Positions 3,614 to 53,825 of a stretch of 64,000 nucleotides of DNA are shown piece by piece. The notes beneath the pieces were generated by a model. The model was not told the origin of the DNA. It did not search any database and was given only the letters and a program-made list of their open reading frames with translations. Made by a program: the position numbers and the translations under genes. Position 1 is the stretch's first letter, and every line of letters starts with the position of its first letter. Location: positions 1 through 64,000 of the forward strand of contig JBAMJV010008398.1 of NCBI GenBank assembly GCA_037951105.1. The letters are read 5' to 3'. The stretch is from Echinarachnius parma (taxonomy: Eukaryota; Echinodermata; Echinoidea; Clypeasteroida; Echinarachniidae).

Positions 3614-3621
3614 AATATCTT

Positions 3622-5025: not shown

Positions 5026-5075
5026 GAAAATCTCTGCGGCGGACGCGGCGGCGGCGCGACGAGGCCAAATCCATA

Positions 5076-5103
5076 GTATCCCCCGAAGTGGTTCGGGGGA
5101 TAC
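5076..5103. other. 5' subterminal palindrome of the Helentron
   Basis: GTATCCCCCGAA (5076-5087) and TTCGGGGGATAC (5092-5103) form a perfect 12-bp stem around the loop GTGG. The same arm occurs once near the opposite end of the element (929-940). Confidence 0.8.
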
Positions 5104-18704: not shown

Positions 18705-18796
18705 ATGACGCTCCATGGAAAAATAGTAGTGATAAAGAGAAACGGTGCAGATGGCGCCCACTTCCCGCTGACAGCTGAGCAGTGCTTGTTCGGAAG
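18705..18796 (+). CDS. MKI67: MKI67 coding exon 1: start of FHA domain
   Basis: This encodes residues 1-30 and two bases of codon 31. The peptide begins MTLHGKIVVIKRNGADG and ends CLFGR, closely matching the N-terminus of vertebrate Ki-67, including the spacing to FGR. The donor is AAG|GTAAAT and the exit phase is 2. The start is chosen because it places the first beta strand of FHA directly after Met; the upstream ATG is a four-codon uORF. Confidence 0.92.
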
Positions 18797-20521
18797 GTAA
18801 ATTTATTTGTTCACAAATTGCAGGGCTTGCGCTTGGTGGCCACTGGCCTGGCCTGGGTGCCAATGGCAACCAGAATTTTAATTTGGCAACTACATGTAGA
18901 AACTAATATTGTATTGGCCACCAACACACACATCTATCATGGGAGTCTATCCGATGTGTAATTTTGGCCATCTGAAAGAAAAGCTTCAAGGGATTGCTAA
19001 GTTAGGGATTGTCCTGGGGTGGTATTCTGTAAGGATCTTAGGAGGTGAAGTTGATCTTAAGAGCAACTTTGGTATTCTGTAAGTTGCTCTTAGAGTTGCT
19101 CTTAAGACCAACTCTGAAAAGTTGCTCTTAACTTAAGAGCAACTTTTCGAATATGTAAATGTATGCAAATATATGCAAATAAGCATCCTAAGATAAGAGG
19201 TATTCTGTAGATGAAGATAAGAGCAACTTTTTGATCTTATCTTAAGACTGCCTACAACCAGTCTTAGTTTGAATTAAACACAACAAAAATAGGAAGTCCC
19301 CCCTCATCAAAACAGCGTAACTTTTTAACGAAACGGTTTTGAGCAAAATAACTTGGCAGAATTGTTTCTACACTTATTGACTAACTTCTGTTTTAACATT
19401 AAATTGGTCCGTCAAGTCATGCATGAGTGAGTAACATTTTGACTCTTGTGACTTTTGAAAAGTGACAATTTTGCCTTTAATGTGTGCTCACTCATGCATG
19501 ACTTGACGGATCAATCTCATTTTCACAGAGAAGTTAGCCAATAAGTGTAGAAACAATTCTGCCAAGTTATTTTGCTCAAAACTTTGTTTATGCTATTTTG
19601 ATTAGGGGGGGGGGGGGGGGAACTTACTTTTTGTTTTGTTTTTAGAACGCGTGATCAAAATGGCCGACGAATTATTGTTATATCAATTTTGGCGGCGGCA
19701 GGAGCAGCTTAATCGCAAAGGTCAATTTTAAAAAGTAGAAGAAAATTCTCCCTCTATGATGCTCCTATCTACAACTTTCGTTGCATTTACGCAACGCACT
19801 TTGATGACATGTTTGACTGCAGTTGACGTAATGCAATTTTGGACGAATTATTCTGTTACTAGGTGTGGTACAGTGGGTACACCATAGAATTATGATATGA
19901 ATAAACAAACAAACCCGTTTATAAACGGGTTGGTTTGTTTATCATAATTAATTCTATGGGGTAATGAAATGAAATGAAATGAAATGTATTAATATCCTTT
20001 CACCCTTATATATATCTTTACACAGTTGCTAAGGCATTTAAGCATATTTTGCGCGCAAATTACTTATTGCGCGTTGTCGGTGCGCGCACGATGCGCGCAA
20101 CACACTTTCATGTACCATCTATTGCTCAGTAACATAATGATTGACTGAAATTGACTTCGTAAATGCACGTTTTTATTATTGCTCCTTGAGAGTTTGAGCA
20201 ATAAATTGTATACGTGTCCGTATTTAAAACATGTAAAAATAAATATGAACAAATATTTTCTTCAAACACTTATAGATAAGCAGATATTATTACATCTCAA
20301 TTACATCTTAATTCCATCTCAAGGAAATAAAGGACGCTTAAACTTATATTTATTTTCTATGAGAGTTTGTTCAATTACACATTTCTTTATTAACTGAAGT
20401 TTGTTTAAATGAGTAATATGATTGCTGTTATAATGTCATACTGTTAAAAGATAATGTTGTAGTACTGTAATATACTTTGCAACAATGGGAAAAAAAGAAT
20501 ATCCATGAACGATATGAACCA

Positions 20522-20598
<77 letters not shown>

Positions 20599-23500
20599 AT
20601 CAATCAATCAATCGTGATGTGGCCACGTGGTATCTACTTGACAATTCTGCAAAATGATTAGTTGTTCATCAATGAAAACAAAGACGATGATTGGTCGAAT
20701 GGTTATTAATGGGCGTGGCTCATGAATATTTATGAGCTAATTAATTATTCATTATTCATGCTAAGATCGTCCTAAGAGCAACTTACAGAATACCACTTAG
20801 GCACATCTTAGGGAGCTCTTAGAGTTGATCTTAAGAGCAACTCCTAAGAGCAACTCTAGGATGAACTTACAGAATACCACCCCTGATCCACATAAAACCC
20901 TGATTTGGCTGTAATAGTTTGAAGAAATGAGAAGATCGCATAATCTGTAAAACAAACAAAAAAGATAGTAAAATTGAAACGATAATTTCTTTGTAAAATA
21001 TATCCAATATCTCAGAATTAGGCATCAAAAGAAAGTTCATGATAAGGTGTTTCTCATGGCTTTGAAATTTCCCAAAGTGCAGGGATTAGTTGGGTCCAGT
21101 CATAGTTATGAACCCTTTTTTTATTATCTTTTTTTTTATTGGGACCAGTTAGAACTGTTAAATCAATTATGCAGAATAATTATAATTTAAATGGAAGAAT
21201 GAACAAACAAATGAAAAGAAAATCTTGACAATTATGTTCTAGGTGGACGAGAAATTTGGAAAACAAAGCTGTTCCATGCTTCTAATACTTAGTAATATGA
21301 ATGCAATGATGTATGTGAGAACCACTAGAAACTGTTAAAACTTACTTTAAAAAAAACACAACAACTTAATAACAACATTGTCATGAATGGTACTTTCTAA
21401 TCTGTAACAATACATTTATAAACATAATAACACATTTCCCCCCCCCCCCCTCTTCATTTCAGGACAAATGAATGCGACATCAGAATTCAGCTCCCCAATG
21501 TTTCAAGAGAGCATTGCAGAATCGAGGTCAACAAAGGAAAGGTCAGTACTTGTTTAGGATGAGACTGAAAATTATGGTAAATCCTTCAATAACCTATCGA
21601 AGACTAATTGGTGAACAATGTCACAATTACTAGTAAAAGTGCCAATGGCAATGAAGATCATACAAGTTCAAATATATGTTACCAATATTTCACTACTTAA
21701 TAAATTTGACTAATCCACTTTATATTGCATGACACTTGCCAATTTGTATAACACCTTTTATATCTATAGACATTTAGTTTGCAAATGTTTTGGGACGGAA
21801 TGCAAATACACTTTGTCCTAATGAAATCATTGGTTTAGAAGCTCTCAATTATTAATTTGTTTTGTCTTTTTTACTATTCAATACAGGTTAACCTTGTGAA
21901 TCTGAGCACAGTGAACCCAACCCTTCTCAATGGAAAGGCGGTTGTGGATAATGAAAGTGTACAACACATGGACACCTTTACTATTGTTGATAGATCATTC
22001 AGGTATGCAACTTTGTGAGACTTGATAATGTGTGGCATTTGATCATTCCAGTTACAATGTAGAAAAGCATGGTAGAAATTACAATAATTGCTTAAATGTT
22101 CAATGTGACTAGTCTAATAAATTCAACATGTAATTATGATATATGATAATTATGATCATAATTTGAAACATAGGCAAAATAATCAAGTTAGTTTCAGGTT
22201 TAACGTAGGTCTCTGTTGATGAGTACCTTCATTTAGAAACCTTAGTAAACCAAGCACAAGTCCTTATTGCTGTTCTGCTCTAGTTGGGATGTCATTTAGT
22301 GTAAGGCTGAGTCGGTTCGGTCGATCACACCGGTTACCGACCGTTTCAATCGGGACCCGGTTTCGTTATATCGGAAACGGTGCCCCGAAAAAAGAAAAAA
22401 AAACATAAAATGTTAAAAAAGAAATTAAGATTATCACAATAATGTAGCGGAATTCAAATAAAAACGGGGCAATTGATATCATTTACTTTAAAGAGTGGTT
22501 ATTTTCGAGAAATTCTTGGTTTGTTACTTCGTTTGACAGTCAGATATTGAACAGGAAGCACAAAATTGCTAGTCATTTGAACGATATTGTCGGCGGATGT
22601 GCACACAAAGTTAGTCCGATACTCCAGGGGAGTTGTCTGATGGATCTTTGTATGATCCAGCTGATGAGCCAGTGCATTCAAAAAGTGGCTCAAAATACGT
22701 TTTTTTGTCATTTGCACCATTTTAAAATGTTTTGATATTCTACTTACATGATTTCATGGCGTTTGAAAGCTGAACAGAAACAAAAATGAGCCCCAAAACA
22801 ATGAAAACAATTACGCAAAATATCGATAAAAAACGACTACATGTATAACGTATGGCGAATGAATTAACATAGTTCCACCGGCCGGCGGATGAATCTATAT
22901 CTCGCGTAAGAAAAAAGACCCGTAACTTGCACGCAAAGTATACGAGCGATATGCATGAAACAGCGGGCCGAAAACTCTAGCCGTCCGGTTTCAGTTAACC
23001 TCACGATCACGAATGTTCCTTGGAAATTTATCGATAATTCGGCACAGTTTTTTCATTGTTTTGGGGGTGATTTTGTATTCTGTTCAGCTTTCAAATGCCA
23101 TGTTATCATGTAAGTAGTAATGCTGTAACCGATCATCGGATCGGCATGCCGATCCCGAACCGATCATGGTTGATCGGATCATTTTTGCCGATTTCCGATC
23201 ATGCAGAAAAAATCGGGAAAAAAATCGGATCGAAAAAAAAAACAACAAAATAATCGTTTTTTTTTCTTTGAAAAATGATCCCCAAAAAACATATTTTGGG
23301 AATATAAATTAATACCAAAGCAACATATTATATCCATATGAATAAGCCCAAGGTAATCTTGTATGGTTATGCTTTCATTTAAACTGATTACCTCTCCTTT
23401 CACAAAATTTCGCGCCGATTCTGAGCTTAGTCCTACGTGAGTCTGAAAGGTTACGCCAAATTGATCAAATGGGACTAAGCTCAGAATCTGCGTGATTAAT

Positions 23501-24645
23501 TTTGTAAAGGAAGAGGTAATCAGTTTGAAATGAAAGCATACCCGTACAAGATTACCTTGGGCTTATTAATATGGATATACCGTTTCTACACCAGTAACGG
23601 ATCACCTACCCACATTGATGCATGAAGACGTTTGTGACTATCTAATTGTTTTAATTTTCATAACTGGAAGAGGAATGTGCATCTAATATCAACTTTATCA
23701 TCTCCTTTTTAAAAGTGATAAACCTCAGTTCCATGATCATCGCGCAAAAGTGAGAAATTAGCCTTCAAAATAGTGTCATCTAGTGACAAAATGTACAGAT
23801 TTCAGATTTTCAAGAAAAAAACGGGGGGGGAAAAAAAATTTTTTTTTTTAATAAGATGTTTAAAAAACAAAAATATGCCGACGGATCTAGAATTCCTATA
23901 TTATTAACACAGGAAGATGTTCTGGTAAACACACCACAGCATTTTCCGGGTGTTTGGGTGCAGGCTTATAGTAAAAAAAGGCAAATTTTAATGTATAATT
24001 ACAGCAGAAATTATCTACACCAGTAACGGATCACCCATTTTCAAATCCTTATAAAAACAAAACAAAAGATCAGAATTAATTTTGTTTTGCTGTAACAATG
24101 TATTTCACTAGAATCTGTGATATTTCTAACTTGAAAATCAAAATTACTTGGATATTTTGGTAAAATCGGGTTTTTGTGTGATTTTTGCTAACATTTCATA
24201 AGGATCATGTGGGGCAGAATTCAACTCCTCATAACTAAATAAGGAAGCACGTTTAAGAAGTTAAATTTTTCCTGGATATTAATTGCTAATTTGCTAACAC
24301 TTTGATGAAAAAATTAAGATAATTGGTCAATTATTTTTAAAATAAAGCCAGGTGATCCGTTACTGGTGTAGTGGTGATCCGTTACTGGTGCAGCGTAAGG
24401 GGTTCGTAAAACGCGCAGTGATTTGCTTATTAGTGACGGAATGAGTTTGAATTAACAATATTCGTAATCTGCACTATTTTAGCTTTCCAACGATGTATGA
24501 TAGTCCATAAAAAATATTTTGTCTTAGCAAGAAATTGTATCCACCAAAAAGTGATCCGTTACTGGTGTAGCTACGGTATGTTGCTTTGGTATTAATTTAT
24601 ATTCCCAAAATATGTTTTTAGGGATCATTTTCCAAAGAAAAAAAA

Positions 24646-24705
<60 letters not shown>

Positions 24706-27700
24706 GATCCGATCCGATTGCTGCGATCCGATTTTCATCGATCAAATTTTGCTGATCCGATCATTAAGGTCAGTTACAGCACTAGTAATAGGAGTGGGCT
24801 ATACGTGGGTGAAAAATACTTTTTTTGACATTTTATTTTCGGGACAGTTTTTTTGTATTCCATTTGCCCTATCTCAACATGAAATGACAATATTTTTTTC
24901 CTGGGGTCGAAGAAAAAAGTGTGCAGGGCCAAAATCCAAGATGGCCGCCGTTTTTCCTTAAAAATCACATTTTCGGCCATAACTTTGTCATTAGTGGGTC
25001 TCTTTATTTGGTTTTGGTGTCTAACCCTATGTTTTGGGGGTTAAGGGATCTATTTATGCAGTTAAAAATACTGTAAAATATTCAGATATTTTGTTAAGGC
25101 ATATTTTGACAATTTTTACCCCTTTTTAACTCAATTTTGATCCATGCCCGTATACCTGAAATTAATGGGTAAATTATATCAGAGAATATTTTTTAAAAAG
25201 CTAGAGAACAAGTTGAAAGTGATAAAATAATATTCATAGCCCCCATAACCTTCACACTTGACAACATTTTCGGCCTGGGGTTATACAAAAAAGTGTGCAG
25301 GGCCAAAATCCAAGATGGCCGCTGTTTTCACATTTTCAGTCATAACTTTGTCATTTTGTGGTGTTTTTACTTGCTTGTGGTATCTATCGCCATGTTTTAG
25401 GGTCAAGCAATCTGACATGCATCTAAAAATAGTCACAAGCCATCAAATGTTGATTGAGTTAACTCCTTTTTTACCTAAATTAGCATATTTCATGAAACGT
25501 GTCTTCAATTTCTACGATGTTGCTTAAAACATAATGCGGCTTTCTTCTAAAGAAGTCCCCGGTTCCTGAAACGGTCACAGGCACAATCTGCTGCTTTATA
25601 GTGTCCTGGATGTCATCAGTCCCAGGGGGTCGCTGCCAAATTTCATCTCTGGTACCAGCACGCATCAGGTGATCCACTCGGAAAGTTCCGTCCCCATTAT
25701 CATCCAGGTACAGTCATGTAGAACCCAATATACCATCTTTTGGTATATGCCTCTCTCGCCCTAGATGACAGCAAGTGGTTGGTTAGTCTGAGTACTTTTT
25801 CAGAGTGAGACATTCCCTCTGCCTCTTGGGCTCCCATGAATGTTTCCAGTATCTCCTCCTCGCAAGGAAATACCACTGCTTCCTATGCTTGGTAATCATC
25901 CCCGAGGAATACTGAACATTAGGTTCCTGATCATCTCTTTCTCTGATAATTTGTTGACCTTGTAAAGGTCCCTGCGGACATCTGCATCACGTTGATATGT
26001 GACTCTCTGTTACTGAATCTCCTGCCTCAAGAACACTTCAGCTCAGGCTATTTGTACTTTAAAGCCCCCCCCCCCCCCCCAAAAAAAAAAAAGAAGCTTT
26101 ATTAGGAATGAGAAAGTGACAAATTCTCTGAAATTAACCTAGGCTTTAGCCTTGTGTTGAAGTGTAATTAATTATAGGAGTAGGCTATACGTGGGTGAAA
26201 AATACTTTTTTTGTCATTTTATTGCCCAAGAGGTAGAGGGAATGTCTCACTCTGAACAAGAACTCATGTTTCAGCCTAACCAACCACTAATTGCTGTCAT
26301 CTGGGATGAGAGAGACATGTACATTGTACCAAAAGATGGTATATTGGGTTCTACATGACTGTACCTGGATGATAATGGGGACGGAATTTTCTGAGTGGAT
26401 CACCTGATGCATGCTGGTACCGGAGATGAAATTTGGGACTGATGACATCCAGGACACTATAGAGCAGCAGATTGTGCCTGTGACCGTTTCAGGAACCAGG
26501 GACTTCTTTAGGAGAAAGCCGCATTATGTTTTAAGCAACATCGCAGAAATTGAAGACATGTTTCACGAAATATGCTAATTTAGGTTAAAAATTAGTTCAA
26601 ATGTAGTCAAAAATGGTGTTAACTCAACATTTGATGGCTTGTGATTATTTTTAGATGCATATTAGATTGATTGACCCCCAAAACATGGGGATATACACCA
26701 CAAGCAAGTAAAAGTGCCACAAAATGACACAGTTATGGCTGAAAATGTGATTTTTCAAGGAAAATGGCAGCCATCTTGGATATTGGCCCTGCACACTTTT
26801 TTGTATAACCCCAGGCCGAAAATGTTGTCAAGTGTGAGGGTTATGGGGGCTATGAATATTATTTTGTCACTTTCAACTTGTTCTCTAGCTTTTTAAAAAT
26901 GTTCTCCAATATAATTTACCCATTAATTTCAGGTATACGGGCAGGGTTCAAAATTGGGTTAAAAATGGTCAGAAATATGCCTTAACACCATATCTGTATA
27001 TTTTACAGTATTTTTAACTGCATAAATAGATCCCTTAACCCCCAAAACATAGGGTTAGACACCAAAACCAAATAAAGAGACCCACTAATGACAAAGTTAT
27101 GGCCGAAAATATGATTTTTAATGAAAAACGGCGGCCATCTTGGATTTTGGCCCTGCACACTTTTTTCTTGGACCCCAGGCAAAAAATATTGTCATTTTAT
27201 GTTGAGATAGGGCAAATGGAATACAAAAAAACTGTCCCGAAAATAAAACGAGAAATGACCCATTTATAGCCCACTCCTACTAGTAAGTAGACTACCAAAA
27301 TCGTGTTGATTGCGAAAAGGCTAATTTATAGCCACTTTTTGAGGGCAGTGGCTCAGTCACAAGCGATTGTACATGTGATGTTTCCCCCCAACTAGCGGGC
27401 TAAGTTTCTGTGAAACGTGTTGCGATGCGCAATGGTGAACAAACGATCGATTTCTAGGTCCAATTTACTTTGAAAAAAAAAACTTTTCTTGCGAAACTGA
27501 ATTAATTCTGGATAGTCTGTAACTATTTTCCCGTAAAGATTGATATGTAAATCCATAAAAGCCTCAGTATTTATAATGTTATTTTCATATAAAAAGAGCA
27601 ATATAAGCCCCAAACAGTGCATTTTTGCCGATGCTTGCACGATTGCGTGATTTTACCGGTCCGAGTTTCGACGGTAAAAATTTATCGGGATACCGGTTCC

Positions 27701-30700
27701 CGACCGGTAAAAGTTTATCGGGACCCGGTTCCGACAATTACCGACGTGACTCAGCCTTAATTTAGTGGATTAACTGCCATAAACTTCTTGTTTTAAATCA
27801 TTGTCTGCATTTGAAATTGAGCTTTGATTCACAATCCTTAATGTCCTAGTAGCACACCAATAACTTTTCCATATTTCTCCTGGTCACTTTGAATGCTAAC
27901 CTGTGGAATTGAACCTCCCCTCCACCCTTGCAGATTTGAGTATCCACCCGGTTCAGCCTACCGCCCTGCACAGACACCAGGAAAGGTTGCAGTGCAGAGC
28001 CCCGTGGTGTCTTCAACAACCCCTAAGTCTCTGAATGCTGGTGGAGACACCCCTACCTCGTCTAAGAAAGCCCCGGGCTCTGCCCAAAAGAAGTCAACGA
28101 CGCCTGCCAAGGCTCCCGGTTCTGCCCAGAAGAAGACAACTACGCCTGCCAAGGCTCCCGGTTCTGCCCAGAAGAAGACGGCTACTCCTGGCAACAAGAC
28201 GACAACACCTGCCAAGGCTCCCGTCTCTGCCCAAAAGAAGACTGCCACCCCTGGAAAGAAGGCAACAACGCCTGCCAAAGCTCCAGGTTCTGCCCAGAAG
28301 AAGGCTGCTACGCCGGGCAAGCAGGCAACGACTCCTGCCAAAGCAGCTACGCCAGTGGCTGCCCCGTCTCCCAAAGCCACCCCTAAGTCAGTGGCTGCTC
28401 CTTCTCCCAAGGCCACTCCTGTGTCCGCTAAGAAATCTTCTCCCAAGACCACTCCCGTGTCCGCTAAGAAGGCTTCACCCAAGGCCACTCCTAAGTTGGC
28501 GAAGAAGGCATCGCCAAAGGCTACAGCTTCTCCTAAAAGTAGGTTACTTGTTCAATATCCAGTGTCTTTAATGTGATTCTTATTACTGTCAAACATGAAT
28601 TACAAAGACCAGCGAATGGTAAACAGAACTCTCAATTTCAGCTTTTCTTGCAGGTGGCCAAAATGACACATCAGATAAACTCCTACGATACAGACTTGTG
28701 TGTTTATTCTTATTTATATGGTAGCTAGAAGATTTTTGGTTAGAAAAGCAAATTGGGTAGTTGTTAAGGAAATCAAAGTGAATAGTGGAATAACAAAATA
28801 CACATGTTTTATTATAATATTTCTGTTTTTTTAATTTTTTAATTTACAGGTAAGACTCCAGTGAAGAAGACACCAGTTAAGATTAGGACACCATCCCCTA
28901 AGTCCAAGAAGGCCAGTCCAGTGGCAGCCCCTGCTGAGCAACCGAGCGTGAAACCAGTTGCCGCTCCGGCCGACGTCAAGACCCCGCCTCCAGCCAAGAA
29001 GAGACGTGGAAGTGGATCGCTCAGCAAGAGTTCTGGAAAGGTACATGTAACTCGAGCCTCAACGTTAATTCTTTTTCTGTTTTTAAAAGTAAAATCATGC
29101 ATTTTCATATTTTACTTGACTTGCCTAACCAGAAAGTGCACTTGCCTGCAATAACTTACGTGAAACAAAAGTAAAATTAATGGTGCTAGGTAGGCAAGGT
29201 AGCTTAATTTGTATGGCAAATTTATCTCTTGTTTCTAGATGAGATTTTCCGAGCCACCAAATTGTTTGAACATTACATGTTGATCTGTTCAGAGAAAAAC
29301 ATGATGTTTTATTATAAAATTTACAAAAAAGAGGACTTGGCAATTTACCCTTCAAAATAGCTGTAAGACCCCACAACAGTAACACATAAAATGCAAAATG
29401 GCTTTCAGAGTACTATTTTTTTAATGCTGGAGGATTTCAAGTGCTGCAATTACACTTTTTTTTCCTTGCGGGTAACAAGTTACCTACATCTGCTTGTTCA
29501 TATTAAAGTGATACCTGTAAAGTGTCAGATATTGCACAAAATGACATTTGAGACTTCAATCCTATATCAATATCATTGTAAAATACAATTGAAAGATTTG
29601 TGAAAGTTTGAAAGAAAACGAACACTGTTTACCTAGTGAAAAAAAAGAATATTGAGTTCATATTTTATCACCGAATACTGATGGCCTGCCATAGATTTGT
29701 CGCAGTAACAATCATCCGTTTGACGATATCCGCACCCGTGTATGTTTACAGACGGTACAGAATTTATGGAATTTGCGCGCGCTCGGCTCAAAGTTCAGTC
29801 GGGTCGGGAAGGTTTCTCACGCGCGCTGGCCGGACGTGTTCAGCTATGACAATTGTACTTTATTTGAAAAGCGTTCCCAACGCTTTTCAAATAAAATATT
29901 TCAATGATAATTATCTTCATACTAAAGGGACATTTGAAAAAATCTAACCCTATTTTATTCTTCTCTTACCATAAGCTAAACAACACGGCAGAAGAGAAAC
30001 AAGGAAGCTCCAAGTATTTTTCGTGGAGTTAGATACTTTACAGGCATCCCTTTAAATCTGAATTTAGAGTAAAAATGATGATAATTGAGTTGTTGTAAAT
30101 GTCAAAAAATATTTGAACTTTGCGTCATTATCCTAGCTTTGGGTAGGTGAATAGAGTTTGTAATATTACAATGGTGTAGCAAGTAGTTTGATTATGAGAA
30201 AAATAAATAAGGATTTATTGACACAATGCAACTAACCTTGCTTTTAAATATCTTTCAAACATTTTGATTGTACATTACATGACGTCACTTCAAAGGCGAG
30301 ACCAGAGTTGTAGTTTTAATTTGCCAACATATTGATGTATCATGTTGTTTGATTCTATCATTCTGCATCGGCGTCAGCATTGTACATAATTATGTTATTC
30401 TTTTGCCATCATGAAATGTTTGATTGTAGATGACACCGTTTGGAAGTCCTAGAGTGCCAAAGACAACGCCACTGAAGAACTCCATCAGTCAGCTTCGACG
30501 CCGCTCTGCACCCGTCAAGGAGGAAGAAATGGAAGGTGCATCTCCAGTCAAGAAGGCCACACCCAAGAAGGCCTCACCCAAGCAGACCACGCCCAAGACG
30601 ACCAAGTCTCCAAAACAGACCACGCCCAAGTCTGCACCCAAAAAGGCCCCTACTCCAAAATCGGGAGGTGTGTATCATATTCTTCTATCTGTGCTAAATC

Positions 30701-33700
30701 AAATTTTGAGGGTTATTTGTGGAACTTATTTATTGGGATAATTTTTACCAACTTTCATGATTTATTATACATATTTTATTAAAGCATTTCATTTGCACCA
30801 AATGTTAAATACTTGTAAACGCTGTTCATATCAACGTACAGTTGATTTAATATTATTAACATACAGTCAAACCTATAATATAATATAAAAGAGGACTGGA
30901 GTCATGAAAATTTCCTTGTATCAGGGTAAAAACAAGACCTGGGACCAACCAAATTACTTTGTTATTGGAGTGTTTTGTTATATCAGGGGGGTTGCATAAA
31001 GAGCTGCTTTCAATCACAAAGTTGTGGTTAGTCGCAAGTCAGAAAATATGCGCATTTGAACCAATCAGATTTGCACATTTTTGGACTTACAATTACTTGT
31101 GATTAATCACACCTCTTTATGCAACACCCCCTGGGCTCTTTGGAACGATATTCCACTGTATAATCAATTCAATCTATATATGTAAGACCTAAAGAAGCAC
31201 ACCTCCAAGACACTAAAATCCCTTCATGATGGTTTATTATTTTGACAGGAAACTTAGTACGTCATATTTTATGAAAAGTGTATCATGACAATAATTATGC
31301 ACATGAATTGTAATAATAATAATATAAATACTTATATAGCGCACTTATCTAAAAAACTTACTCAAGGCGCTACAACACTGCAAAAAACAAAGAACCTGAT
31401 TCAACAGTATTGTCTCTACAAAATTTAGCAAATATCACACAATTATATTAATAGCTTGGAGTAAATAAAAAAAATCCTTCACATGCCTCTGGAAAGTTTC
31501 CAGGTACTGAACATTACGAATATCACTTGGTAACTTATTCCAAAGGACAGGGGCAACATGTGCGAATGCACGATCACCATAGGCGATCAGATATAGAATA
31601 TCAAGACATTTCTAATCTATTCAAAATATTTCAATATTTTTTTATTTTTATGCACAGGCAAATCTACCAAGAAGACTCCAGGCTCTGGTCAAAAGCGTAA
31701 GATTTCTGTGTCTGAATTTGCACCCAGCGCAAAAAGGAAGCGTGTGTCCTTTGGTCCAGCCCTCAGCCCAGAGCAGTTCGACAAGTACTTGCCACCTCTT
31801 ACACCTATAAAGAGGGGACAGTCACCGGCAAGGAGGTCTCTTGGTGGTCTAACAGGATCAGGCTCCAAGTACAAGGCCGTCAAGAAGCAGCGTGCATCCA
31901 TCGCTGGGACTGTGCCTGCCATTCTGGAGGAACCCAGTCCGAAGAAAGCTACTCCCAAGAAGTCTGCCAGCCCCAAGGCAAAGCTTGCAACACCAAAGAA
32001 GGCTGCTTCTCCAAAAGTTGCCACACCAAGTCCCAAGGCCAAAGCAGCATCTCCAAAGGCTACCACACCCAAGAAAGCTGCATCCCCAAAAGTTGCAACA
32101 CCCAGTCCGAAGGCAAAGGCTGCTACACCAAAAAAAGCAGCAACCCCCAAAGTTGCCACCCCCAGTCCTAAAGGAAAGGCTGCAAGCCCCAAAGTTGCAA
32201 CACCCAGTCCAAAGGCAAAGGCTGCTACACCCAAGAAGGCTGCAACCCCCAAAGTTGCCACCCCCAGTCCTAAAGCAAAGGCTGCGAGCCCCAAAGTTGC
32301 AACACCCAGTCCAAAGGCAAAGGCTGCTACACCCAAGAAGCCTGTGACCCCTAAAGTTGCCACCCCCAGTCCTAAAGCAAATGCTGCAACACCCAGTCCT
32401 AAGGCAAAGGCTGCAACCCCCAAAGTTGCAACACCCAGTCCTAAGGCAAAGGCTGCTACACCCAAGAAGCCTGCAACCCCAAAAGTTGCTACACCAAGTC
32501 CCAAGGCAGCAACACCAAAAGTCGCTGCACCAAGTCCCAAGTCTACTCCCAAGGCCAAGAAGGCTGCAACACCAAGCCCCAAGCCTGCTACTCCAAAAGC
32601 AGCTACTCCAAAAGCAGCTACTCCAAAGGCAGCCACTCCAAAAGTTTCTACACCAAAATCAACGCCCAAGTCTACAGCCAAGGCAACTACTCCCAAGGCT
32701 CCAACACCTGGGCGCAATTCTCCTAAGCGTTCACCCAAGCGCCCAGCAGCCTTGTCTGATGAAAGTTTCACAGGTCTTCCAGAGCTCTTCAAGACCCCAT
32801 CTCCACAGAAAGGTGCGAGCCGTGTGAGCGGAGGAAAAGTGACCAAGGTGACCCCTAAAGCTGCAGCGGTTGTGAGGAAGATTGTAACGCCAATGAAGGA
32901 GGAGATCAAGCAGGCTGCTGCGGCTAAGAGAAAGAGTCTGCCAAAGTCCATTCCCAGTCACATGAAGGCTGAGATTCTGGTAGAGGCTGCCCTGAAACAG
33001 CAGAGGCGTCCTTCCCCAAGGAAAGGCATGAGCTCACCCATGAAGCAGGAGCTGAAGAAGGCTGCCAAGGCCAAGGAGAGGAGTCCAGTCAAAGTCATGA
33101 AGACTCCACTTAGAAAGGCAATCAAAGAGGTATGTACATCAATACTTCAAGGAGACACGAAATGTAATAAACTGATGTACTATTTTATTTTTCACTTATA
33201 GTTGGCTATGTTGAATCAATTTTACTAATGTTAAAACTTTTTGTCTGACTGTGCCTGAAAAACCGTATCATTTGGCAGATTGAAATATAATTAAAAACTT
33301 TTACTATGATAAGTATTCATTGTATTGACAAAAATTAAAACAAATATTTACGTACTGTAGATTGTAATTCTTGTTAAGCTCACTGTTCTTTTTTCTTTTT
33401 TTTTACTCTGTTCTTTAATTTTCAGGGAGTGCAACTGAAGAAGGTTGAAGCATCTCCAAAGGCCCCGACTCCAAGTAAGAGCCCTGCGGAGAAGAAAACT
33501 CCTGCAAAGGCAGCTACACCAAAACAGAAGTCCCCAGCTAAGGCAGTCACCCCAAAGACCAAGGCTTCACCAAAACCTGCCACACCTGCTTCAGCAAAGA
33601 AAACACCAGCAAAGGCAGCAACACCAAAAGCAAAGACCCCTAAGGCTCAGACTCCTGCAAAGAAGACCCCAGCTAAGTCTGCAAGGAAGACCCCTGCCGC

Positions 33701-36700
33701 AAAGTCAGCTTTGAAGAAGACTCCAGCTAGGTCTGCCATCAAGAAAACTCCAGCCAGAAAGACCCCAGCAAGACCCAAGTCTTCACGCAAGCCAACGTTT
33801 GCTGATATCGTCAAGAGGGGAGGAGCTGGAAAGGTTGCGGCCAAGGGTGGAGCCAAAGGAAGTATGACTGTCAAGTGGGCTGGCAAGGCAAAGGCCATTG
33901 CTCGCAAGGTGCAGAAATCACGTCAGCTCAAGGCAAAGACACCCAAGGTGAGAGGAAACTTATTTGTCTTGAGATTTTTTCTAACCAGTTTGGACTTATA
34001 TAATTTCTTGTTTGTTTTGAAGTAATTTTCTTTGTGTCAATTTACAATTTAATTATACTTAGAGATTTTATAGGTTTTTCAATGTATGGTTCTCAATTAA
34101 AAGGGCTTTCAATGTAGATATCTATTATTGATGTAAACATCGTTTTATTTTTAGTCATGATTGTCGTTGGTCAGGTAAATAAAATTTCATGCCAAAAAAT
34201 GACATTCAGCAATAGTTCTACACTTTCTCTGTTGTAAAATATTTACCTGGTGAAGAGGACCAATTAGTATTATAACATGATTGTTCATTCGTGTATAGGT
34301 TATTAGTTCATTTCTTACAGGTATTTTTCTCTCTCTCTCCCTACTTATATCCGTTTACAGAAAGCTGCAAGGCTTGGTGTTGGCAGCACAGGTCATGCAC
34401 AGTCCCCAGCAACTATTGTCTTGAAGAAAACATTGAAAGCAAAGACCCCTCTGAAGACCAAGAAAGGAAGGAAGACTCCTAACAAGAAGGCCTCCACTAA
34501 GAAAGCACAGTCTGTTGCGGACACAAGCTTCACAGGCGTCGAGAATCTCTTCAAAACACCTTCACCAGCCAAGCGCACCAAGGTAACACCTGTCAGTACC
34601 CCTGACATGAAGACCCCAGAAGGGCCCGGAGAGATGTTTGTATCTCCTCTTACCAATTCTAGAAAGAAGTCCCCAGCATCTGCCAAGAAAACTACTCCAA
34701 CACCTAAGAGTAGTACCAAGGCAGGTAGGAAATCTGAAGGACTAGCTGGAATTGCTAGACTGATAGAGACCCCAAAACAGAAGACTCCCAAGCAGAAAGC
34801 TGTGCCTAAGACACCTGAGCTGTCTGACATTTCTAGGCTGATGAAGACGCCCAAACAGAAAGCTGCGGCAAAGACACCTGTTCCAATAGGAGTTGCAAGA
34901 CTTATGAAGACACCTAAACAGAAGACAGAACTAAAGTCCCCCGATGCGGCAGGCATGAGTAGACTGTTCAAACAAGGCACCAAGACACCCAAGGCAAAAC
35001 CTTCTCCTAAATACACAGGCATTAGAGAGTTGATGAAAACCCCGAAGAATGTTGATCCATACACTGATTTTGAAGGTATTCCAGATCTCTTTGCATCACC
35101 AGCAGCTGTTACTGTAAACAGGAAGACCCCAGAGAAGCAGGCAGGCAAGAGGAAGAGGACCGAAACACCATCTGCCAAGCCAGCAAAGAGAGCAAGGATC
35201 CAGGAGACTCCTGCAAAATCTCAAGCTTCACCAAAGAAGACACCTGCAAAATCACCCAAGGCAACACCCAAGAAAACACCTGCAAAATCTCCAGTGGTTG
35301 CACCTAAGGAAACTCCTGCAAAATCACCCAAGGCAACACCCAAAAAGGCAGCTACTCCGAGTAAGACCCAGGCTGCTAAATCCCCCAAGGCAACACCCAA
35401 GAAGACACCTGCAAAATCTCCAGTGGTTGCACCTAAGGAAACTCCTGCAAAATCACCCAAGGCAACACCCAAAAAGGCAGCTACTCCGAGTAAGACCCAG
35501 GCTGCTGAATCCCCCAAGGCAACACCCAAGAAAACTCCTGCAAAATCACCCAAGGCAACACCCAAGAAGGCTGCTACTCCGAAGAAGACCCCTGCTAAAA
35601 CCCCCAAGGCAACTACCAAGAAGGCTTCCAAATCTGCTGAGCCAACTGAGGTGGAAAGTATCCAGGCCACTCCAGTTCAAACTCCAGCCAAGAGAGCTAC
35701 CAGGGGAAAGAAAGCACCCGCTAAATCACCAGCTAAGAAGTCCGTTAAAGGAAGCAAAACAAAATCTGTTACAATTGAAACGCCTAAGGCCAAGCAATCC
35801 GTGGAAGCATCTCCAAGCCCAGCTAAAAAAGCAACGAGAGGAAGGAAGGCACCTGCTGCAAAGCCTGCGGCAAAGAAGAGTGCAAGGGGTGGGAAATCCA
35901 AGGCTGCTCCTTCAGAGGCTGTTAGTGTTGAACCACAGCAGGTTGAAGCTTCTCCTGCAAAGACCCCAGTAAAGAGAGCAACCAGGGGAAAGAAGGCAAA
36001 TCCTGTGAAATCACCTGCGAAGAAGACAACAAGAGGGAAGAAGGCAAGTCCAGTGAAAGCCAAGAAGGAAGAACCAGAACCTGCAGTAGCCAGTCCTGTA
36101 AAGACACCTGTCAAGAGGGCATCTCGCAGCAAAAAGGCAGCATCTCCAGTCAAGAAGCAAGCCAAGACAGCAACTAAGCAAAAGAAGGCAGAATCTGTGC
36201 CTGCAGAAGCAACACCTGCAAAGAGTCCAGCAAAGCGTGCAACTAGAGGAAAGAGGGCAGCATCTCCTGCCAAAACACCTGCCAAGAAGGTTGCACGAGG
36301 AAAGAAAGTTGAAGTAGAGCAAAAGCAGCCAACCCCTGCCAAGACTCCTGCAAAGAGGGCAACTAGAGGAAAGAAAGCTGCTGCAGCACCTGTAAAGACC
36401 CCAGCTAAAGAACCTCAACCGGTTGAAGCTACCCCCGAGAAGAGTCCAGTCAAGAAAACAACACGAGGAAAGAAGGCTGCTTCTCCTGCACCAGCAAAGA
36501 AAGCCACCAGGGGGAAGAAGGCTGCTCCCAAGTCTCCTGTCCCAGAGGTACCTGCTGTGACATCCAAGAGAGGTACCAAGAGGGCTGCCCCTGAACCAGA
36601 GCCTGTCGCAACGCCTTCACCCAAAAAGACCAGAGGAGGAAGGACGCGTGCTGCACCAAAATCTCCGAAAGCTGCCACACCGAAGCCGACACCAAAGGTA

Positions 36701-36907
36701 ACGCGCAAGGGAAAGGCAGCCGCAGTTGCATCTCCTAAAGCACCCACTCCCAAAGTTACCAGGGGAAAGAAGGCTGCACCAAAGGCCAAGACACCAGAGA
36801 AGGTCAAACCCTCGCCCAAGGCAACCAGGGCAAAGGGTAAGGCGTCGACTAAAGCAGCAAAGGCATCTCCAGCACCGACAAGAAGCACAAGATCAAGGAG
36901 GAAATAG
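18705..36907 (+). CDS. MKI67: Ki-67-like proliferation antigen (MKI67 orthologue), nine coding exons
   Basis: Joining 18705-18796, 21463-21541, 21887-22002, 27934-28538, 28850-29040, 30430-30667, 31658-33129, 33426-33947 and 34361-36907 keeps the frame through every GT-AG junction. It gives about 1953 residues. Domains: FHA ~6-96 (FGR 29-31, S45, H48, N72-G73); PP1-docking RVSF 469-472 with FD..LPP.TP..RG at 481-494; LFKTP motifs near 809-821 and 1161-1172; a TFADIVK block ~1055-1061; GSTGHAQSP 1113-1121; the rest is Lys/Pro/Ala/Thr repeats with dense S/T-P-x-K sites. Known: vertebrate Ki-67 coats mitotic chromosomes, binds phosphopartners through FHA and recruits PP1 through RVSF plus the KiR-SLiM. 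RepoMan shares the PP1 motif but lacks FHA, so Ki-67 is the better match. The vertebrate ~122-residue repeats and a clear LR domain are not visible; a basic RGKK-repeat tail stands in. Nuclear/chromosomal role inferred. Confidence 0.9.
19286..19630. mobile_element. Foldback element inside the intron-1 element
   Basis: Sequence from about 19286 ('agtcccccctcatcaaaa', then 'gagcaaaataacttggcag') through 'gtcaagtcatgcatgagtga' is repeated inverted up to about 19625. The two arms are ~165 bp each with little spacer, so the whole unit can fold into one long hairpin. The right arm carries a poly-G run at its tip. No ORF. Confidence 0.75.
19882..19960. repeat. Near-perfect 78-bp palindrome without spacer
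   Basis: 'ccatagaattatgata' through 'aacccgtttat' is followed immediately by its inverse, 'ataaacgggtt' through 'attaattctatgg', with a few mismatches. It could form a long cruciform or be the tip of a small foldback element. Confidence 0.7.
20521..20614. repeat. (AATC)n microsatellite
   Basis: About 23 tandem 'aatc' units with one 'gatc' variant. Confidence 0.95.
21463..21541 (+). CDS. MKI67: MKI67 coding exon 2: FHA core
   Basis: This encodes residues 31-57. ECDIRIQLPNVSREHCRIEV is the FHA core with the conserved S45 and H48 used in phosphothreonine binding, and it aligns without gaps to vertebrate Ki-67. The acceptor is TTTCAG, the donor AAG|GTCAGT. Entry phase 2, exit phase 0. Confidence 0.93.
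21887..22002 (+). CDS. MKI67: MKI67 coding exon 3: end of FHA domain
   Basis: This encodes residues 58-95 and most of codon 96. VNLVNLSTVNPTLLNG includes the N-G pair (72-73) of FHA domains, and TFTIVDRSFR closes the last strand as in vertebrate Ki-67. Exit phase 2. The donor is AG|GTATGC. The preceding intron (21542-21886) holds nothing notable. Confidence 0.92.
23580..24576. mobile_element. TA-target (Tc1/mariner-like) element, 997 bp, inserted in element 2
   Basis: The ends are CCGTTTCTACACCAGTAACG and the inverse CGTTACTGGTGTAGCTACGG, with TA at 23578-23579 and 24577-24578. The terminal motif 'accagtaacggatcac' appears five times (about 23590, 24020, 24355, 24376 and 24555) in both orientations. 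The mirrored arm of element 2 shows the same site without this insert. No ORF of note. Confidence 0.8.
24649..24702 (+). repeat. Poly-T tract of about 54 bases
   Basis: A homopolymer in the right arm of hAT-like element 2; the mirrored position in the left arm has only short A/T runs. The length may be uncertain because of sequencing slippage. Confidence 0.85.
24789..27279. mobile_element. Large foldback element (2.5 kb) with ~1-kb arms, inserted in element 2
   Basis: It starts TAGGAGTGGGCTATA and ends TATAGCCCACTCCTA (last bases diverged internally) with CTAGTAA at 24782-24788 and 27280-27286. The left arm (24789-~25833) is mirrored by the right arm (~26224-27279) at high identity. The ~390-bp centre carries a third copy of the terminus ('aggagtaggctatacgtggg' at ~26177) and a poly-C/A tract. 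Both arms preserve the same ~45-residue open segment (see findings). No transposase is recognised; superfamily open. Confidence 0.8.
27934..28538 (+). CDS. MKI67: MKI67 coding exon 4: Lys/Pro/Ala-rich repeats
   Basis: This encodes residues 96 (part) to 297. After FEYPPGSAYRPAQTPGK it becomes ~14-residue tandem units of the type KAPGSAQKKTTTPA, then SPKATPKSVAAP-type units. It is disordered, strongly basic and rich in S/TP sites. The frame continues past 28538 as intron read-through, but the donor AAAA|GTAGGT joins in phase 1 to the next exon. Confidence 0.85.
28539..28849 (+). other. MKI67 intron 4 of the coding region
   Basis: A 311-bp AT-rich GT-AG intron with no repeat recognised. Confidence 0.8.
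28850..29040 (+). CDS. MKI67: MKI67 coding exon 5: basic linker
   Basis: This encodes residues 298-361. The peptide starts SKTPVKKTPVKIRTPSPKSK and includes PPPAKKRRGSGS, a plausible nuclear localisation signal. Acceptor TTACAG, donor GGAAAG|GTACAT. Entry phase 1, exit phase 0. Confidence 0.85.
29041..30429 (+). other. MKI67 intron 5 of the coding region
   Basis: A 1.4-kb intron containing a TTAA-type MITE of family B (29507-30051). The remainder is AT-rich and featureless. Confidence 0.8.
29507..30051. mobile_element. TTAA-type MITE family B, copy B2 (545 bp)
   Basis: It starts AGTGATACCTGTAAAG and ends CTTTACAGGCATCCCT. TTAA lies at 29503-29506 and 30052-30055. A perfect inner hairpin ('atttgaaaagcgtt' and its inverse) lies near 29865-29893. 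Non-coding. Confidence 0.7.
30430..30667 (+). CDS. MKI67: MKI67 coding exon 6
   Basis: This encodes residues 362-440. MTPFGSPRVPKTTPLKNSIS and QLRRRSAPVKEEEMEG precede ATPKKASPKQTTPK-type repeats. Acceptor TTGTAG; donor GGAG|GTGTGT in phase 1, giving a Gly codon across the junction. Confidence 0.82.
30668..31657 (+). other. MKI67 intron 6 of the coding region with repeat debris
   Basis: It contains a degenerate CAGT.GAACC-type MITE (about 30865-31157). This is interrupted by a small element with ends GGGGGTTGCATAAAGAG and its inverse (about 30988-31132). A minus-strand LINE 3' end follows (31318-31617). Confidence 0.7.
31318..31617 (-). mobile_element. 3' end of a CR1/L2-like LINE
   Basis: On the minus strand, 31590-31435 encodes YGDRAFAHVAPVLWNKLPSD, continuing IRNVQYLETFQRHVKDFFYL to a stop. 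This is the characteristic C-terminal tail of many CR1/L2-group reverse transcriptase ORFs. A 3' UTR with 'gcgccttgagtaag…gcgctatataag' and an (ATT)n tail follow. Only the last ~300 bp are present, as in typical 5'-truncated insertions. Confidence 0.75.
31658..33129 (+). CDS. MKI67: MKI67 coding exon 7: PP1-docking motif and S/TPKK repeats
   Basis: This encodes residues 441-931. AKRKRVSFGPALSPEQFD and KYLPPLTPIKRG (466-494) match the bipartite PP1-binding site of Ki-67 and RepoMan (RVxF plus KiR-SLiM). RVSF is encoded at 31741-31752. Next come ~330 residues of K/A/T/P/S repeats including a 34-residue (102-bp) tandem unit, then SFTGLPELFKTPSP (810-823), resembling the AGFKELFQTP motif of vertebrate Ki-67 repeats. 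Near 855-925, three SP/IP..MK.E(I/L) blocks (TPMKEEIKQAA, SHMKAEILVEA, SPMKQELKKAA) look amphipathic. Exit phase 0. Confidence 0.93.
32141..32450 (+). repeat. In-frame 102-bp minisatellite within MKI67
   Basis: 'caacccccaaagttgccacc' and its variants recur at 32141, 32243 and 32345, exactly 102 bp apart. Each unit encodes 34 residues with about six S/TP sites. A shortened fourth copy follows. This makes the length prone to change between alleles. Confidence 0.85.
33130..33425 (+). other. MKI67 intron 7 of the coding region
   Basis: A 296-bp AT-rich intron (donor GAG|GTATGT, acceptor TTTTCAG) with nothing recognised. Confidence 0.85.
33426..33947 (+). CDS. MKI67: MKI67 coding exon 8: KTPA repeats and conserved TFADIVK block
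   Basis: This encodes residues 932-1105. About 120 residues of KTPAKAATPK-type repeats lead to SSRKPTFADIVKRGGAGKVA and KGSMTVKWAGKAKAIARKVQ (about 1050-1100). The latter corresponds to the KSWADVVKLG region of vertebrate Ki-67. Its conservation amid low-complexity sequence suggests a binding function that I cannot name. Phase 0 at both ends. Confidence 0.88.
33948..34360 (+). other. MKI67 intron 8 of the coding region
   Basis: A 413-bp AT-rich intron with donor AAG|GTGAGA and acceptor TTTACAG. No repeat recognised. Confidence 0.85.
34361..36907 (+). CDS. MKI67: MKI67 last coding exon: LFKTP motifs, TPKK repeats and basic RGKK tail
   Basis: This encodes residues 1106-1953; stop TAG at 36905-36907. 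KAARLGVGSTGHAQSPATIV (1107-1126) matches the STGHANSP segment of vertebrate Ki-67. Then come SFTGVENLFKTPSP (1161-1174) and about six short motifs of the type G(I/V)..L(M/F/I).TPK, e.g. GIARLIETPK and GIRELMKTPK, which look like minimal Ki-67-repeat cores. From ~1390 follow TPKKTPAKSPKA repeats with a 129-bp tandem duplication (about 35263-35520). Then about fourteen ~25-residue units centred on ATRGKKA, ending TRSTRSRRK. The strongly basic tail fits chromosome binding like the vertebrate LR domain, but Leu/Arg pairs are absent. Confidence 0.92.
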   Translation, partial: KAARLGVGSTGHAQSPATIVLKKTLKAKTPLKTKKGRKTPNKKASTKKAQSVADTSFTGVENLFKTPSPAKRTKVTPVSTPDMKTPEGPGEMFVSPLTNSRKKSPASAKKTTPTPKSSTKAGRKSEGLAGIARLIETPKQKTPKQKAVPKTPELSDISRLMKTPKQKAAAKTPVPIGVARLMKTPKQKTELKSPDAAGMSRLFKQGTKTPKAKPSPKYTGIRELMKTPKNVDPYTDFEGIPDLFASPAAVTVNRKTPEKQAGKRKRTETPSAKPAKRARIQETPAKSQASPKKTPAKSPKATPKKTPAKSPVVAPKETPAKSPKATPKKAATPSKTQAAKSPKATPKKTPAKSPVVAPKETPAKSPKATPKKAATPSKTQAAESPKATPKKTPAKSPKATPKKAATPKKTPAKTPKATTKKASKSAEPTEVESIQATPVQTPAKRATRGKKAPAKSPAKKSVKGSKTKSVTIETPKAKQSVEASPSPAKKATRGRKAPAAKPAAKKSARGGKSKAAPSEAVSVEPQQVEASPAKTPVKRATRGKKANPVKSPAKKTTRGKKASPVKAKKEEPEPAVASPVKTPVKRASRSKKAASPVKKQAKTATKQKKAESVPAEATPAKSPAKRATRGKRAASPAKTPAKKVARGKKVEVEQKQPTPAKTPAKRATRGKKAAAAPVKTPAKEPQPVEATPEKSPVKKTTRGKKAASPAPAKKATRGKKAAPKSPVPEVPAVTSKRGTKRAAPEPEPVATPSPKKTRGGRTRAAPKSPKAATPKPTPKVTRKGKAAAVASPKAPTPKVTRGKKAAPKAKTPEKVKPSPKATRAKGKASTKAAKASPAPTRSTRSRRK
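35263..35520 (+). repeat. In-frame 129-bp tandem duplication within MKI67
   Basis: 'ccagtggttgcacctaagg' occurs at 35291 and again at 35420 with near-identical surroundings. This adds 43 residues of TPAKSPKATPKK-type sequence. Confidence 0.85.
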
Positions 36908-48232: not shown

Positions 48233-49526
48233 GTAGACCTTACGGCTGCCTATGACACAGTGAATCATCGATTACTCCTCAATAAGCTGTACAGGATGAC
48301 AAGTGACATTCATCGACCAAACTCATCCAACTGCTACTAGGAAACAGACGTTTCTTTGTGGAGCTGAACGGAAAGCGCTGCAGGTGGAGGATACAGAAGA
48401 ATGGACTCCCACAGGGCAGTGCTTCGCCCCAGTCCTGTTCAACATCTACACGAATGACCAACCTGTCTCTCCAGGCACAAGGAGCTTCATCTATGATGAC
48501 GATCTCGGCATTGCCACTCAGAACAGCGATACCAATGAGATAGAGAGCACATTAACATCAGCCCTAGACAACCTGACAGTATACTACAGAGAAAACCAGC
48601 TGAAAGCAAACCCTACCAAGACCCAGGTCTGCTTATTTCATCTACGCAACCGCGAGGCTGGGAAGAAACTATCACTCACATGGAATGGTACCCCCCTTGA
48701 CCACTGCGATCATCCAGTGTACCTTGGCGTTACCCTGGATCGGACACTTTCATTCAAGCAGCATATCGGAAAGGTGAGGGGAAAAGTGAGGACCAGGAAC
48801 AACCTCCTCCGGAAACTGACAAACTCCTCTTGGAGTGCCAGTGCATCTACACTACGGGCAACAGCTGTTGCACTTTGTTATTCTGCTGCGGAGTATGCGT
48901 GCCCAGTCTGGGAAAGATCCTCGCACTCGAAGAAACTTGACCCAATTCTCAACGATAGCTGCAGAGCAATCTCTGGTTGTCTAAAGCCGACAAATGTAAG
49001 CAGCCTGTATGTCCTGTCCGGCATTGCTCCACCCGATATACGCCGGTCAGCAGCCAGTAGCGTGGAGCGTCTCAGACAAAGTCAGGATAGCCGCCATCCA
49101 TGTTATGACATCCAACCATCCCAGAAACGGCTCAAATCAAGGAAAAGCTTCCTACACTCTGTCCAACTGCTGACCGAATCCTCACAGGTGGCCAGACGTA
49201 GGCTTTGGGAGGAGAGGCGCAGCAGTAACCGCCACCATGACAAGCTACCTCTCCCTACTAAGGAGCACTTACCCCCAGGACACAAGCAAGACTGGAAGAC
49301 ATGGAAGTCCCTCAACCGACTTCGCACAGGGATGGGTCGATGCAAAGTCATCATGAAAAAGTGGGGATGTACAGATGATGACAACACTAACTGCGACTGT
49401 GGCACATCACAAACCATGCAACACCTCCTTCAATGTCCTAACCTTGATGAACAGTGTAGTCAAGGAGATCTGGTGGCTGCAAATGAGACAGCCCTGCGAT
49501 GTGCAAAGTCATGGCCAAATATTTAA
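48233..49526 (+). pseudogene. Reverse transcriptase fragment (Jockey/CR1-like), frameshifted
   Basis: The fragment opens in VDLTAAYDTVNHRLLLNKLY (motif A region), shifts frame to LLLGNRRFFVELNGKRC… GLPQGS (motif B), then shifts again into APVLFNIYTND. From about 48430 one frame runs to TAA at 49524-49526. It covers the catalytic IYDDDLGIA motif (YxDD type), PVYLGVTLDRTLSF, the thumb, and a C-terminal zinc-knuckle-like CDCGTSQTMQHLLQCP. At least two frameshifts and the lost endonuclease half make it non-functional. Confidence 0.88.
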
Positions 49527-53506: not shown

Positions 53507-53542
53507 TATGACGATACAGAAGGTTGATTTTGATGGTGAGGG

Positions 53543-53551
53543 TGATGGAAG

Positions 53552-53604
<53 letters not shown>

Positions 53605-53632
53605 CTGATGATGCTGATGATGATGATGATGT

Positions 53633-53688
<56 letters not shown>

Positions 53689-53825
53689 TTGATGATGATG
53701 ATGATGATGATGGTGGGGGTGATGGCAGTGATGATGGTGTCAATGGTGGGGGTGATGGCAGTGATGATGATGATGGTGATGAGAAAGATGATGATGATGA
53801 TGATGGTGGGGGTGATGGCAGTGAT
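53543..53825. repeat. (GAT)n microsatellite, left part
   Basis: Long ATG/GAT repeats with GTT, GCT and GGTGGG variants. The run resumes after the transposon at ~54872-54950 ('gatgatggtgatgatg'), so it was one tract before insertion. Poly-Asp/poly-Met/poly-Ser frames here are by-products. Confidence 0.95.

Follow-up and report, generated by a model that had tools for sequence, protein, structure and literature searches.

A probable single counterpart of Ki-67 and RepoMan in the echinoid Echinarachnius parma

We analysed a stretch of 64,000 nucleotides of the Echinarachnius parma genome (contig JBAMJV010008398.1, positions 1 to 64,000 of the forward strand; hereafter the window), in which an invertebrate orthologue of Ki-67 had been predicted from the sequence alone. 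The locus at 18705-36907 (+) is very probably one intact invertebrate gene, the single pro-orthologue of Ki-67 (MKI67), well known as a marker of dividing cells, and of RepoMan (CDCA2). Since one invertebrate gene model carries both an FHA domain of Ki-67 type and a PP1 recruitment module, these two elements appear to predate vertebrates, as had been proposed. Because a third place with a PP1_bind domain was not found in the genome, and the two places that were found are read as alleles, the gene seems best called a representative of both Ki-67 and RepoMan; the original assignment to Ki-67 was thus very probably right as to orthology but incomplete.

Gene model and conserved modules

The gene model comprises nine exons with compatible phases and GT-AG borders throughout, all on the forward strand (+) like the features described within them. 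The spliced coding sequence encodes a predicted protein of 1,953 amino acids (202 kDa, isoelectric point 11.3) rich in K, A, P, T and S, with a single stop ending at 36907, and its ends coincide exactly with those first proposed (18705 and 36907). The start codon is preceded by an upstream in-frame stop and a poly(A)-type signal is present at 37527. Exon 1 (18705..18796) contains the start codon and the FHA strands up to CLFGR, exon 2 (21463..21541) the FHA core (ECDIRIQLPNVSREHC), exon 3 (21887..22002) most of the remaining FHA domain, and exon 4 (27934..28538) its last strand (RFEY) followed by basic APGSAQKK/TP repeats. Exons 5 (28850..29040) and 6 (30430..30667) come from the splice model and recur in a second copy of the locus, on contig C404. 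Exon 7 (31658..33129) encodes the PP1 site, SPKA/TPKK repeats and a first copy of a Ki-67-motif-like core, exon 8 (33426..33947) includes TFADIVK (33795-33815), and exon 9 (34361..36907) comprises GSTGHAQSP (34382-34408), a motif array, basic C-terminal repeats and the stop. Rfam and tRNA scans of the window gave no matches.

The FHA exons are joined to the rest of the model at the acceptor of exon 4. We scanned 301 AG acceptors from 22031 to 28200; two of them offered an aromatic-x-aromatic continuation of the FHA domain, and the acceptor at 27934, preceded by a pyrimidine-rich tract, was the only one to extend the end strand (RFEY) into a long open frame, of 214 codons. Because this is the sole fitting acceptor and because the C404 copy keeps the exons, the splice sites and the frame, we consider on these sequence grounds that the joining is more than chance. 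The single gene model originally put forward is thus consistent with the phases, with the RFEY strand and with the second copy.

Profile searches of the exons, which had been named as a check of the original prediction, recovered both expected families, with Pfam FHA at residues 28-90 (E = 2.2e-12) and PP1_bind in exon 7 (E = 2.7e-12, above the curated cut-off). The Yop-YscD_cpl family, a relative of FHA, was close behind the former (residues 16-96, E = 2.1e-11). When homologues of the FHA domain and of the PP1 site were ranked among PDB chains, the best match of the FHA domain was human Ki-67 (2aff, 9.9e-31; 1r21, 1.2e-30), far ahead of the next proteins, a GGDEF domain protein (1.1e-8), CHFR (5.1e-3) and MDC1 (0.013), which places this N-terminal domain within the Ki-67 type. 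The predicted near-colinearity with the vertebrate domain was borne out, 49 of 93 residues being identical to human Ki-67 in a gapless alignment. The residues R31, S45, H48 and N67, which we take to be of the kind that contacts the phospholigand, are kept, and position 63 is L instead of F.

The PP1 docking stretch consists of RVSF, at residue 469, and the downstream FD..LPP.TP..RG, both encoded at 31741-31827. Its best PDB matches were Ki-67 (5j28, 2.9e-7) and RepoMan (5ioh, 2.7e-6; 5inb, 8.8e-6), and the ranking was the same with an 80-residue query (8e-9, 7.9e-8 and 2.8e-7, respectively). Over 32 residues, the site shares 19 with Ki-67 and 16 with RepoMan, these two sharing 17 with each other. 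The general KiR-SLiM is given as FDxxLP(P/A)N(T/S)PL(R/K)(R/K)Gx(T/S)P (PMC5005033), and the window sequence matches this motif relaxed at two positions. An RVxF motif followed by a stretch of KiR-SLiM type is what characterises the Ki-67/RepoMan family. The sequences KRKRV and LSPE are as in RepoMan, which in contrast has RVTF where the window has RVSF. The similarity between RepoMan and Ki-67 is described as confined to a PP1 region of about 40 residues (PMC5005033), so RepoMan should lack an FHA domain of Ki-67 type; such a domain is present here, which sets the gene apart from a separate RepoMan paralogue.

The KiR-SLiM is reported to discriminate Arg20 of PP1-gamma from Gln20 of PP1-alpha (Kumar et al., PMC5005033). 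The N-terminal family of PP1 type was found at seven places in the genome among 16 candidates; three of these were readable and three of the other four had in-frame stops. Two near-identical exons contain VRGSRPGKNVQ, in which Arg takes the place of the Gln of wild-type PP1-alpha chains, and the third readable exon (ARGKPFKQVN) has Arg at the same place in an alignment made by eye.

Downstream of RVSF, the protein has TFADIVK (residue 1055) and GHAQSP (residue 1116). The block order claimed for vertebrates was thus recovered in the window protein, the vertebrate counterparts of the last two blocks being presumed. A presumptive human Ki-67 segment aligned with the window protein at 17.7 bits, whereas 1,000 shuffles of a 230-residue stretch gave at most 6.6 bits; GHAQSP and an LFKTP that follows it fell within the best alignment, TFADIVK outside it. 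The first motif copy of exon 9 is placed after the GHAQSP block, presumably as in human Ki-67 to judge from that segment.

The claim that the repeat body evolved independently appears overstated, about eight copies of a sequence resembling the core of the Ki-67 motif being present. The published motif has 22 residues (TPKEKAQALEDLAGFKELFQTP; PMC8354752). One copy of the core (DESFTGLPELFKTP) lies in exon 7 at 32758..32799 and seven form an array in exon 9 at 34520..35101, all identified by pattern and scored with BLOSUM62; both the patterns and the score threshold of 20 were set after inspection of the sequence. The pattern G[FILVM]..[LIM][FMIL].[TS]P occurs at residues 813, 1164, 1235, 1282, 1325 and 1344; relaxing it added copies at 1261 and 1303. 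In 20,000 shuffles the strict pattern matched once in 14 and twice in none. Against the published 14-residue core, seven sites scored at least 20, all within the eight pattern copies, compared with a mean of 0.08 such sites and a maximum of 2 in 5,000 shuffles; the eighth copy (residue 1282) scored 12, when sites that are not copies reach 19 and 17. With the full 22-residue motif the best scores were 36, 36, 35 and 32, followed by low-complexity stretches, the shuffle maxima having a 99th percentile of 35 and a highest value of 48. Homology of these cores with the vertebrate motif is thus likely on sequence grounds, if unproven.

The protein contains 476 K/R and 80 D/E residues (net charge +396), and its ten consecutive blocks (nine of 200 residues and one of 153) are all net basic. 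It has 210 S/TP dipeptides when 58 are expected from composition, 85 of them in the form S/TPx(K/R). The C-terminal basic region (35681..36904), with 12 units (K/R)xxR(G/S)(K/R)(K/R), may act as a chromatin anchor.

A second copy of the locus

In a six-frame search of the genome (1.2 Gb, 14,790 contigs), two of three PP1_bind candidates scored, one in the window and one on contig C404, of which 28 kb were compared with the window. Colinearity with C404 spans about 8.8 to 40 kb of the window, covering the gene together with about 10 kb on its upstream side and 3 kb on its downstream side. Identity in the colinear pieces ranges from 83 to 98%, with the lowest values in introns 2 and 3, and the two contigs differ by large insertions and a local duplication. 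We rejected the possibility that the C404 place is a RepoMan gene, the flanks being colinear and the protein nearly identical to that of the window.

The nine exons are present on C404 in the same order, with GT-AG borders, one terminal stop and in-frame indels. Compared with the window, exon 7 lacks 15 nt and exon 9 has 18 nt more, the other exons being equal in length. Intron 3 differs most: it measures 5,931 bp in the window and 800 bp on C404. A repeat-rich stretch of 5,456 bp (window 22302..27757), with inverted repeats whose arms reach 302 nt and are 94% complementary, is absent from the C404 intron, although fragments of it have matches in other parts of C404. The comparison with C404 can in part take the place of RNA evidence for the gene model.

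Between the two copies we counted 52.5 synonymous and 33.5 non-synonymous changes, giving a synonymous rate (dS) of 0.036, a non-synonymous rate (dN) of 0.0077 and a dN/dS of 0.213. Both copies are under purifying selection. When the protein was divided into parts, whose boundaries overlap in places, FHA residues 1-100 showed 5 synonymous and 0 non-synonymous changes and the PP1 stretch (462-505) 1 and 0. The ratio was 0.127 for residues 101-440, 0.099 for residues 800-931 and 0.189 for the motif array (1155-1360; 5 synonymous, 3 non-synonymous); it rose to 0.417 in the C-terminal repeats and to 0.611 in the repeats of exon 7. The stretch from TFADIVK to GHAQSP had 0 synonymous changes and 1 non-synonymous change, a count too small for use. 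In the motif copy at residue 1261, SDIS of the window corresponds to SGIS on C404.

Several other FHA matches in the assembly are also paired, with equal or near-equal scores. For this reason, we read the C404 locus as the probable other allele (haplotype) of the window gene.

Identity of the gene and alternative explanations

Ki-67 had been presented as usually discussed for vertebrates, but invertebrate forms have been reported before. Ki-67 sequences of Ciona, Saccoglossus, Hydra and Trichoplax are listed in a figure legend of Booth et al. (2014, PMC4032110), where the RepoMan rows are human, frog and zebrafish; by this listing, the E. parma gene resembles those sequences in having the PP1-binding region outside vertebrates. 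The MOON family is described as comprising 36 homologues, 31 of them anthozoan, with an FHA domain, a PP1 site and C-terminal repeats (PMC11417379), KI67 mRNA of a sea cucumber served in 2025 as a marker of proliferating cells (PMC11925454), and Ki67 has been called the homologue of bridgin in metazoa (PMC7794384; repeated in PMC9252888). The passages of PMC13144362 that were consulted hold nothing on invertebrates. Ki-67 outside vertebrates is thus already published, and the present gene is an added member of the family. Among the open-licence papers listed by our searches, we noticed none describing Ki-67-motif arrays in echinoderms.

The resemblance to vertebrate Ki-67 extends over the N-terminal FHA domain, RVSF with its downstream KiR-like stretch, a body rich in S/TP, several copies resembling the LAGFKELFQTP core and a basic C-terminus. 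A number of observations nevertheless count against identification of the gene as the Ki-67/RepoMan pro-orthologue. The nine-exon model is predicted from genomic DNA alone, and the lack of a third PP1_bind place in the 1.2 Gb, hence of RepoMan, rests on one six-frame search. The KiR-like stretch FDKYLPPLTPIKRGQSP departs from the strict KiR-SLiM at two positions, where L replaces N and I replaces L, and EQ occupies the Phi-Phi pair, when EL or EV would be expected. Pfam KI67R (PF08065, 112 positions) was not detected in exons 6-9, whole or in pieces (exons 4 and 5 were unscanned), nor in the genome at E values up to 10 in a search that had no positive control; as these repeats are called extremely variable and are mentioned with the words 'where present' (PMC8354752), we did not treat them as required. 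The LR chromatin-binding domain gave no family match in exon 9, whose tail is basic with its 12 RGKK-like units. On these searches, the protein differs from vertebrate Ki-67 in its KiR-like stretch and in showing no KI67R repeat and no recognisable LR domain.

A further difference, which also counts against the identification, concerns the ligand of the FHA domain, reported to be NIFK in human Ki-67 (PMC8354752). The hNIFK_binding family had no match in the genome in a search in which control sequences were silent too. Of 33 candidates obtained with a presumptive human NIFK segment as query, three scored: a pair of exons on contig C2539 (9.3e-10 and 9.3e-5) and a place on C8164 (2.2e-4). In a rough exon reading, the likely C-terminal exon of the C2539 NIFK-like gene has no TP dipeptide, and the TP-pair patterns nearby occupy other frames. 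Because of this, the FHA ligand in E. parma may differ from the human NIFK motif, and the phosphate pocket of the domain may be older than its best-known ligand. We also observed that the first RRM exon of this NIFK-like gene occurs in two tandem, differing copies (C2539:66373-66719), possibly alternative exons.

Three other explanations have to be considered. The locus could consist of two adjacent genes wrongly joined, exons 1-3 belonging to an FHA protein and exons 4-9 to a basic protein that binds PP1, as might be suspected from the length of intron 3 in the window and from the inverted repeats that fill it. We regard this as very improbable, since exon 4 completes the FHA end strand in phase from the one acceptor that opens a long frame, the same intron is merely 800 bp long on C404, and Ki-67 shows the same order of modules. 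The gene could also encode a protein akin to bridgin or MOON, mainly a DNA-binding linker of kinetochore or chromatin that resembles Ki-67 only in its N-terminal half. The MOON proteins, likened to ours by description, also combine an FHA domain with a PP1 site and C-terminal repeats, and four members from corals were found to bind DNA, in the case of SpMOON1 the repeat region by itself (PMC11417379). Bridgin of basidiomycete fungi likewise has an N-terminal FHA domain, a long disordered part and a basic C-terminus (PMC7794384). However, according to the same source bridgin has an acidic middle (isoelectric point 4.65), a kinetochore localisation and an unconventional PP1 site, whereas all ten blocks are net basic here. 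The MOON repeat unit is said to have low identity with the Ki-67 motif (PMC11417379). The Ki-67-motif-like copies of the E. parma protein favour Ki-67 proper. We consider a linker of this sort unlikely; MOON may itself be the coral Ki-67.

The third explanation bears on the number of genes: the window and C404 could be recent paralogues, one perhaps retired, instead of alleles. The presence of the gene on two separate contigs, which differ by large insertions and a local duplication, is in its favour, and the limited length and identity of the colinear flanks made it less remote than it would otherwise be. We still hold it for improbable, as colinearity continues on both sides of the gene, the pairing of other FHA matches is expected if both haplotypes were kept in the assembly, and both copies keep an open frame, the same splicing pattern and the mark of purifying selection. 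Since the identity of the gene does not depend on whether the two copies are alleles or duplicates, our confidence in the Ki-67/RepoMan pro-orthologue is unaffected by this choice.

Surroundings of the gene and proposed mechanism

In the flanks of the gene (3.6-18.6 kb and 37-52 kb), a six-frame Pfam search for syntenic neighbours, with stops treated as residues, gave nothing at E 0.01 except an Slx4 score at about 4.1 kb. We rejected this score because the stretch is a tandem array full of stops (about 4000-5100, unit of roughly 150 bp). Further out, a single open frame at 2243-3619 (-) combines an endonuclease/exonuclease/phosphatase domain with a weak match of Pif1 2B-like kind, which stays below the cut-off, and looks like a Helitron-type element. 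Another, at 48300-49523 (+), has a partial reverse-transcriptase match below the Pfam cut-off and probably belongs to an element without long terminal repeats (non-LTR). A long simple-sequence stretch at 53223-53981 is open in several frames on both strands. The CpG observed/expected ratio is 0.64 over the whole window, against 0.31 for the coding sequence.

The mitochondrial contig (C14600) contains COX1 with 12 TGA inside the frame. In a count by eye against solved COX1, the single aligned AAA stands at Asn; the 18 ATA codons stand at Ile (12), Leu (3), Met (2) and Val (1), and the four AGA codons at Ser, Ala, Gly and Val, one each, with none at Arg. This codon usage agrees with the echinoderm and flatworm code (NCBI table 9). 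A close similarity to mammalian COX1 and the general appearance of the protein, reminiscent of sea cucumbers, would favour an echinoderm.

Concerning function, the model that we propose takes disorder, localisation, kinases, coating of chromatin and timing from vertebrate Ki-67. The long, very basic and largely disordered protein would bind chromatin through its C-terminal RGKK-type repeats, while the FHA domain, on the outer end, would hold phosphoproteins. In mitosis, Cdk1 would phosphorylate the 210 S/TP sites and cancel the net charge of +396, leading to the coating of chromosomes. At mitotic exit, the RVSF/KiR-like site would recruit PP1 of the Arg20 type, following the loss of an Aurora-type phosphorylation on the serine of RVSF. 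For human Ki-67, hyperphosphorylation of the repeats in mitosis is reported to produce alternating charge blocks that favour a coat at the chromosome periphery (PMC9106583), and a charge-dynamic model of Ki-67 has been described (PMC8786303); the E. parma protein could, by analogy, behave in the same way.

We propose, with chances that we judge to be even, that arrays of a short LFKTP-type motif (G-phi-x-x-L-F/M-x-T-P) existed before echinoderms and vertebrates diverged, the motif later becoming part of the long KI67R unit, that the FHA pocket is older than a ligand of the NIFK type, and that Ki-67 and RepoMan split from one such gene. If the two copies are alleles, as we read them, then the FHA domain, the PP1 site and the motif copies are held by selection, while the low-complexity repeats drift more. 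Echinarachnius parma would be an animal in which the duties of Ki-67 and RepoMan may be undivided, and its gene gives a concrete test of the origin of the Ki-67 repeats and helps to separate the old parts of the family from possible vertebrate additions.

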